Shown here in pieces: positions 18,432 through 50,748 of a DNA stretch of 50,836 nt. Origin of the DNA: Deltaproteobacteria bacterium. Its GTDB lineage: Bacteria > Myxococcota_A > UBA9160 > UBA6930. The stretch is taken from positions 1 through 50,836 of the forward strand of contig JAFDCZ010000043.1 in NCBI GenBank assembly GCA_019312665.1, written 5' to 3'. Position 1 is the first letter of the stretch. The number at the start of each line of letters is the position of its first letter. The notes under the pieces are model-generated. The model was not told where the DNA came from, did no database searches, and saw nothing but the letters and a program-made list of their open reading frames with translations. A program made the translations under genes and the position numbers.

Positions 18432-18650
18432 CCGCTTCGCTTCTCGTGGTGGATCGCGGGGCGGGGGGCGGCCAGCGCTCCATGGCTCGCCAGGGCCTCG
18501 AACGCGCTTGCACCTGGTTTGCCTGGCTCGCAGTGCGAGGGCGCGTACTCTCGGGCCTGGCTCCGCTTCTACTTCCGCGCTGACCGCCCCCCGCCCCGCG
18601 ATTGGCCGCGTAGGCAATTCGGGTGCATTGCCTGGACTGGGCGCAGCTCT
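18432..18650 (-). repeat. Interspersed terminal-inverted-repeat element, copy A
   Basis: A core from about 18453 to 18602 is bounded by near-perfect terminal inverted repeats, ATCGCGGGGCGGGGGGCGG at the left and CCGCCCCCCGCCCCGCGAT at the right. Read as reverse complement, the core and its flanks align to copy B at about 40640-40868, with most bases identical by eye. The homology extends beyond the inverted repeats to a TTGCCT and a CTGCGCCCAG block on one side and to GAGAAGCG on the other. The element fills the gap between the convergent genes trpF and coaE. No transposase is encoded. It may be a MITE-like element, and its structure would fold in RNA from either strand. Confidence 0.85.
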
Positions 18651-18707
18651 GGCGACAGGAGTTGACGCTCGAAAGGGAAGCGGCTGAATGGGAGTCGACT
18701 GACGGTC

Positions 18708-40407: not shown

Positions 40408-40490
40408 GCTTCGCGACTGCGCCGCTCCGGGCTTCCTCCGCGATGCGTCGAACTCTCGGGTCGCTTCGCTTCTCCAGCGCCACACTCGAG

Positions 40491-40665
40491 TCGCCGGGGC
40501 TGGGCACAGGCCGGGCGGAATGGCTCGGCCGGGGGTCGGGTGGCCGCGTAGAGAGCGGGACAGGGTGTTGCCCTTTGCGGCTTCGCCGCGGGCAACCTAC
40601 GCGCACGCCGGGCGGGACCTATGCCTGCGCTTTATTTCCGCCCGGCCTGCGCCCAGCCCCGGCGA
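40491..40665. repeat. Second element with 30-bp terminal inverted repeats
   Basis: The left end starts TCGCCGGGGCTGGGCACAGG and the right end is its reverse complement over 30 bases with a single mismatch (40491-40520 and 40636-40665). The interior of 115 bases holds another hairpin, GTTGCCC ... GGGCAAC enclosing GCGGCTTCGCCGC. There is no coding capacity. It abuts copy B of the other repeat. It looks like a non-autonomous palindromic element. Confidence 0.85.
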
Positions 40666-40868
40666 TGTGGTTCCAGTTGCCTGCACGGTCGATCGCGGGG
40701 CGGGGGGCGGTCAGCGCGGAAGTAAAAGCGGAGCCAGGCCCGAGAGTACGCGCCCTCGGACTGCTAGCTCGGCAAACCGGGTGCACGCGCGTTCGAGGGT
40801 CTGGTGAGCCATGGATCGCTGGGCGCCCCCCCGCCCCGCGATCCGCAACGAGAAGCGGAGCGGAGTCC
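40640..40868 (+). repeat. Interspersed terminal-inverted-repeat element, copy B
   Basis: The core 40691-40843 runs from GATCGCGGGGCGGGGGGCGG to CCGCCCCGCGATC and matches the reverse complement of copy A near 18.5 kb. Matching blocks include TCAGCGCGGAAGTA, AAGCGGAGCCAGGCCCGAGA and GTACGCGCCCTCG. The homology continues left through TTGCCT and CTGCGCCCAG into the right end of the neighbouring inverted-repeat element, and right to AACGAGAAGCG. Copy B, like copy A, lies between convergent genes. Confidence 0.85.
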
Positions 40869-40883
40869 TGGGAGTGGGGTTCT

Positions 40884-50674: not shown

Positions 50675-50748
50675 GCCCCCGTAGCTCAGTTGGATAGAGC
50701 ATCGGTTTCCTAAACCGAGGGTCAGAGGTTCGAGTCCTCTCGGGGGCG
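50675..50748 (+). tRNA. tRNA-Arg (anticodon CCT)
   Basis: The full cloverleaf is visible: acceptor GCCCCCG/CGGGGGC, D arm GCTC-AGTTGGATA-GAGC, anticodon arm TCGGT-TTCCTAA-ACCGA with CCT at the tip, variable GGGTC, T arm AGAGG-TTCGAGT-CCTCT. The discriminator is G, and CCA is not encoded. It reads the codon AGG. Confidence 0.97.

Follow-up and report, generated by a model that had tools for sequence, protein, structure and literature searches.

A dispersed hairpin module with a near-invariant core across a bacterial order

Two inverted copies of an intergenic repeat without a credible protein lie 22 kb apart in a 50,836-nucleotide contig of a Deltaproteobacteria bacterium (JAFDCZ010000043.1; the window), which raises the question of what the unit of this repeat is and how it came to be copied. 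A preliminary description of the DNA had matched 40640-40868 to the reverse complement of 18432-18650 and had taken both for a MITE-like or structured repeat of about 220 bp. A blast search of the own genome (G000) with 40640-40875 as the query returned 18432-18646 on the minus strand (86% identity, E = 6.9e-67), and the inverted match is therefore real. The inverted arms ATCGCGGGGCGGGGGG...CCCCCCGCCCCGCGAT, which had been read as the borders of the repeat, are also present, but they do not border it. The alignment of the copies with their flanks identified them as the stem of a hairpin inside the element (module B) and showed that conservation reaches further out; the arms were rejected as the ends of the element. 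The homology noticed beyond the arms is real and includes a second module, A (40491-40665), whose interior has been lost from the 18.4-kb copy. By aligning full-length copies with their flanks, we obtained a conserved unit of 403 bp at 40461-40863, bounded by TCGCTTCGCTTCTC...GAGAAGCGGAGCGG. Across copies, the consensus of these terminal inverted repeats (TIRs) is CCGCTTCGCTTCTC...GAGAAGCGAAGCGG (14 bp), and a full element typically measures about 401 bp. In the 403-bp element, the 14-bp TIRs enclose two back-to-back hairpin modules, A on the minus and B on the plus strand. The locus 40461-40863 is the intact A-B double, and in 18432-18683 B is kept and A is reduced to its base. Folding of the element (40464-40864) gave a z-score of -7.2. 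The features are as follows, R2 being the second covariance model described below.

40461..40863, + strand (oriented by module B): complete double-module element, from full-length copies aligned with their flanks
40461..40474, + strand: left TIR TCGCTTCGCTTCTC, from the alignment; pairs with the right end
40850..40863, + strand: right TIR GAGAAGCGGAGCGG, from the alignment
40491..40665, - strand: hairpin module A, R2 match L001:1352-1526:-, 95.6 bits; strand by G-U/A-C asymmetry
40491-40520/40636-40665: arms of module A
40625..40641, - strand: 5' core of module A, GCGGAAATAAAGCGCAG (minus strand), from sequence and family alignment
40520..40527, - strand: 3' core of module A, CGAGCCAT (minus strand), from sequence and family alignment
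40692..40842, + strand: hairpin module B, R2 match G000:C376:40692-40842:+, 101.2 bits
40718..40734, + strand: 5' core of module B, GGAAGTAAAAGCGGAGC, from sequence; near-invariant columns
40806..40812, + strand: 3' core of module B, GAGCCAT, from sequence; near-invariant columns
18432..18683, - strand: second copy, module B and the base of the deleted module A, from sequence and aligned single-module copies
18432-18445 (intact) and 18670-18683 (decayed): TIRs of the second copy
18453..18602, - strand: module B of the second copy, R2 match G000:C376:18453-18602:-, 118.5 bits

The guess that two copies in the window meant many in the genome was borne out. By blast, the element occurs at about 40 places in G000, a 5.3-Mb draft of 392 contigs. 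The locus is clearly not one of only two copies without structure, given about 40 copies and strong compensatory structure. The copies differed in architecture: A-B doubles of about 401 bp, variant doubles of about 425 bp with an inverted A in place of the interior of B, singles of 220-250 bp, and two longer forms, one of 551 and one of 572 bp. The family is present in each of the five genomes of the genus, in versions particular to the species. When element loci of other species were blasted against those of G000, many sites of G000 and its relative G003 proved to be common by descent yet differently filled. For instance, the loci L005 (G000, A-B) and L120 (G003, A plus inverted A) align over 2.5 kb with 85% identity; the right hairpin tip is swapped and the left stem carries two compensated double changes. 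In G004, almost nothing separates the matches that flank the 40.6-kb site, and G003 and G001 lack the 18.4-kb element. Two empty sites were aligned, and they were not clean excisions. Since many sites are shared by descent, either the element has seldom jumped in recent times or copies have recombined with each other to produce the differences. The G003 counterpart of the 40.6-kb site (L148, G003:C680) contains about 1 kb of other sequence, apparently including an open reading frame.

In another genus (G008), a short stretch matched by blast turned out to be a hairpin like B that combined the same inner sequence with a completely different stem. Given that this match was real, the search was extended to the whole family. 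A first covariance model, built on module B, found modules in further genera and families, and a second model (R2) was built on 23 diverse modules. Each module, the basic unit, is a hairpin of about 80-175 nt with a long stem of 26 bp. Among the 23 modules, 96.0% of the cells were paired compared with 66.1% in shuffles, 27 of 32 pairs had changed on both sides, and double-change cells numbered 194 against 55. The covariation score was 0.736, compared with 0.176 in shuffles and at most 0.125 with partners slid; deriving the structure from this very alignment gives it an advantage over the slid versions, but one far smaller than the margin. Compensatory changes, a check that the preliminary description had proposed together with a covariance model, were then counted in 57 modules across genera. 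Double Watson-Crick changes occurred in all 26 stem pairs and 95% of the cells were paired, in an alignment that was fitted to the model and whose pair counts lean towards the structure.

Adjoining this freely rewritten stem is a core that hardly varies across genera, GAARU(M)AAGCGCAG...CGAGCCAU, with GAARU(M)AAGCRSAG as its 5' side. The near-invariant columns of the 57 modules are 5' G-A-A-R-U-(A/C)-A-A-G-C-G-(C/G)-A-G and 3' C-G-A-G-C-C-A-U, and the core is built of three 2-bp helices between asymmetric internal loops. The module tip is variable and at times almost absent (83 nt in G042). A near-invariant core beside a fully rewritten stem implies, as judged from the aligned sequences, recognition of the folded single strand by some component of the cell.

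Of 80 genomes of the order, 41, spread over six families, had the module by R2, and this patchy presence fits a dispensable element. None of 11 other genomes of the class that were searched matched R2, and in a sample of 379 genomes of the phylum, which serves as a negative control, 40 of 40 positives belonged to the order. The counts per genome, lower bounds set by the candidates scored, were at least 37 in G000, 36 in G003, 30 in G052, 28 in G071, 22 in G022 and 15 in G046, and copy number among carriers ranged from 1 to at least 37. Copies within one genome resemble each other, and the stems differ between genera. The back-to-back A(-)-B(+) order of the genus recurs in G068, G030, G057, G032 and G055; singles are also common. 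Nine copies in G046 share an identical hairpin and the TIR CCCTGATTCG...CGAATCAGGG, with flanks that are otherwise unrelated. This TIR differs from that of G000; borders are legible in these two lineages. With one and the same module enclosed by a different TIR in G046, amplification thus occurred separately in different lineages, the inner core being constant and the TIR not. An exact 20-mer match in a Bacteroidota genome was rejected as chance. Weak order-level blast matches in G015 and G035 lacked the core in the stretches inspected.

The balance of G-U and A-C in the pair columns distinguishes the two strands. With a structure chosen without G-U pairs, 25 pair columns on the plus strand of module A showed A-C mismatches, against 9 with G-U, and this A-C excess indicates that the functional strand of A is the minus strand; module B was neutral in the same test. 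An ordinary RNAalifold run, our first look, had suggested that the G-U pairs of module A were on the same strand as B; leaving G-U pairs out of the structure overturned this. For the full elements, stem counts of G-U versus A-C were 15 versus 5 in the TIR and 1 versus 23 in the arms of A, where a single column accounts for 14 of the 23. Across genera, with all modules in one sense, they were 32 versus 11 in the stem (p = 0.002 on the assumption of independent cells, which related sequences are not) and 25 versus 0 in the core. A and B are the same polarity, set back to back. The excess of G-U over A-C on one strand indicates that one particular single strand, RNA or ssDNA, is under selection, and the asymmetry counts against a purely double-stranded or strand-symmetric explanation. 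RNA and ssDNA are not separated by these counts because G-T wobbles are tolerated in DNA. Near 40578-40592, the tip of module A reads GGC-GAA-GCC on the minus strand, with covarying variants among copies. The GGC-GAA-GCC triloop is unusually stable in DNA, and the tip may hint at ssDNA.

The copies are placed 3' of genes. Among 30 copies in G000, with gene context called by a simple gene caller, 19 lay between convergent, 10 between co-directional and one between divergent genes. In other genomes, nearly all outside the genus, the corresponding counts were 21, 22 and 2, and no copy overlapped a gene. The element occupied 8 of 35 convergent gaps (23%), 2 of 167 co-directional gaps (1.2%) and 0 of 89 divergent gaps, in a sample made up of 20 unselected contigs (element in 0/20) and others picked as long or element-bearing. 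Only two convergent gaps of at least 40 bp exist in the window, and both hold the element. Orientation relative to the adjoining gene, counted by eye, had no clear bias; both orientations occur. The flanking genes are of ordinary kinds: the 18.4-kb copy neighbours genes for PRA isomerase and dephospho-CoA kinase, and the 40.6-kb copy adjoins a gene for a CAP-domain protein. The genes between neighbouring modules encode ordinary enzymes, a cold-shock protein or products without a Pfam match, and those neighbouring different modules are mutually unrelated. The targeting of intrinsic terminators was rejected (4/35 elements versus 2/27 control gaps).

Convergent gaps also hold other palindromes. 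A family of near-perfect long palindromes (GGGGACGGGGTTTACAATTGACTTGTT and its complement) was found at L182:4957-5073, L182:14684-14777, L188:17013-17065 and L195:18927-18998, and at the G003 site orthologous to 18.4 kb, where it sits in the position of the window's element. A second type (GGGGACGTTCTTTCCGCTGTTTCCG and its complement) occupies convergent gaps of the same genome at L190:2565-2667 and L191:13498-13600. The window also carries a tRNA gene at 50675-50748.

As the preliminary description had stated for the window, no transposase was found linked to the modules examined. The target-site duplication that it had proposed to look for was not detectable in 35 copies by a sliding direct-repeat test (1.20 observed versus 1.24 shuffled; old duplications can decay). 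A palindromic target was rejected, since pairing reaches only a few nucleotides past the TIR. An exact search for TIR 12-mers in five genomes, drafts that break at repeats, gave facing pairs at most about 570 bp apart among the matches listed, none of them wide enough for a transposase gene. The stem flanks shared no common end tag. The element had no match in Rfam 15 at the gathering score (in the scan of the window, and in six loci at E up to 1) and none to phages or plasmids, and the gapped core pattern retrieved nothing from viral contigs. No description of the element was found in the literature covered, which mostly leaves out subscription papers.

The reading as a MITE-like or structured repeat, put forward in the preliminary description, is supported by the copy number, the TIRs, the strong compensatory structure, the finding of no linked transposase, and sites in sister species that are empty or filled differently. 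The ends were misplaced, however, the element is modular (A, B, inverted A for B) and target-site duplication is undetectable; what is conserved, throughout an order, is a hairpin module and not the bordered repeat of about 220 bp. We read the element, with a probability of about 0.5, as a non-autonomous dispersed structured repeat with the hairpin module as its unit, one strand of which is recognised and copied or moved via the core. In this reading, the invariant core would let a trans-acting protein recognise the folded single strand, which the protein would then copy or move. The stem sequence would be free to drift provided that pairing is kept, and copies would last at convergent 3' ends because they are least harmful, or useful, there. 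Such spread would be of the kind proposed for REPINs. Against this reading, a mobilising enzyme was searched for and none was found, and the strong preference for convergent gene ends would suit an RNA function as well.

Whether the selected strand serves as a mobilisation intermediate or as a 3'-end RNA is the chief uncertainty. It is quite possible that the module acts in cis as a 3'-UTR RNA, whose core would be bound by a protein that protects, processes or terminates transcripts, chiefly at convergent ends, spread being secondary. The strand-specific tolerance of G-U and the invariant internal loops are typical of RNA, sites are kept between species, and the 3' placement agrees, both in the counts of copies (19/30 convergent against 1/30 divergent in G000; 21 convergent, 22 co-directional and 2 divergent elsewhere) and in the share of sampled gaps filled (23% of convergent against 1.2% of co-directional). 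However, half of the order's genomes and most convergent gaps lack the module, copy number runs from 1 to at least 37 beside unrelated genes, Rfam has no match, both orientations occur relative to the neighbouring gene, and each double puts one module antisense to either transcript. An unlikely variant of mobilisation is a bacterial SINE-like retroposon or other single-strand-templated element, with the folded strand as the intermediate, a non-Y1 enzyme and insertion beside transcript 3' ends. We know of no such mobilisation route described for bacterial non-coding repeats; if true, it would be new for them.

A REPIN mobilised by a host RAYT (Y1, IS200-like) transposase would explain the inverted hairpin pairs in intergenic positions 3' of genes, and RAYT-like Y1 genes are present in all five genomes of the genus. 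This explanation is already largely refuted and improbable, given that RAYT loci have their own unrelated inverted flanks and that no module was present in the RAYT gene flanks fetched. Y1_Tnp (PF01797) showed no co-occurrence with the module (17/41 positive versus 13/39 negative genomes), and none was found in G052, G046, G068, G005 and G057, which hold 12-30 modules, by a profile that scores many of these proteins near the cut-off and could miss some. The CGCGGGGC words that had suggested a link through shared flanks are a separate inverted repeat found only around RAYT genes, and the link was rejected. The RAYT-like loci of G000 (L071, L074, L079, L089, L090 and L091) are multi-copy and have inverted flanks of about 100 bp (TCGCGGGGCTGTTGAGGGGGG...). 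We consider it very unlikely that the element is an ordinary MITE of a TIR-recognising (DDE) transposase with the hairpins as passengers. Its short TIRs, its size of 220-570 bp and its many copies would suit one; nevertheless, target-site duplication was not detected, it is the inner core and not the TIR that stays the same between lineages, whereas TIR recognition would predict the opposite, and no longer autonomous element appeared among the exact TIR matches listed, in MAG contigs that break at repeats. Least probable of all is a mutational by-product of palindrome-templated correction and recombination between copies, without selection on the folded strand. The long GC-rich palindromes, module swapping and internal deletions speak for it, and such correction may contribute to the compensatory changes, but it is strand-symmetric and cannot yield an unpaired core that is near-invariant across families or an excess of G-U over A-C.

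The pairing of an almost invariant asymmetric core with a completely rewritten stem speaks strongly, on comparative grounds, for recognition of a folded single strand. One short motif, with up to about 40 copies per genome in half an order, offers a testable handle on two questions, how non-coding repeats spread when no transposase can be recognised and why such repeats settle at gene ends. The element is a kind of scattered hairpin previously unlisted.

Palindromic units that are mosaically combined in alternating orientation at 3' ends are known as bacterial interspersed mosaic elements (BIMEs). The element resembles them in its mosaic, alternating palindromic units at 3' ends, and differs in unit size, sequence and host group, as well as in the exchange of module tips at fixed sites. 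REPs are 20-40 bp long with a GTAG or CGTC end tag, and REPINs are intergenic, hairpin-forming inverted doublets of REPs that are present in many copies, most of them where co-directional or convergent genes end (PMC3116915; PMC3733652). Our element likewise forms inverted hairpin doublets that are extragenic, present in many copies and placed at co-directional or convergent gene ends. Unlike REPs, however, its modules measure 80-175 nt and have an invariant internal-loop core in place of the tag, and unlike REPINs, it lacks a RAYT association and its singles amplify too. RAYT/TIRYT units with long inverted-repeat flanks have been described (PMC3733652), and those in the same genomes have inverted flanks of about 100 bp, unrelated in sequence to the module. 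Bacterial MITEs (Correia, ERIC, RUP, QMITE2 and others) are small, non-coding, TIR-bearing and intergenic, and QMITE2 lies mainly in 3' untranslated regions (PMC10969869). The element is also small, non-coding and intergenic with TIRs, but no target duplication was found, its TIR differs between lineages, its inner hairpin core has order-wide covariation, and it is GC-rich. The element works like a REPIN or a MITE but lacks defining features of both that were tested.
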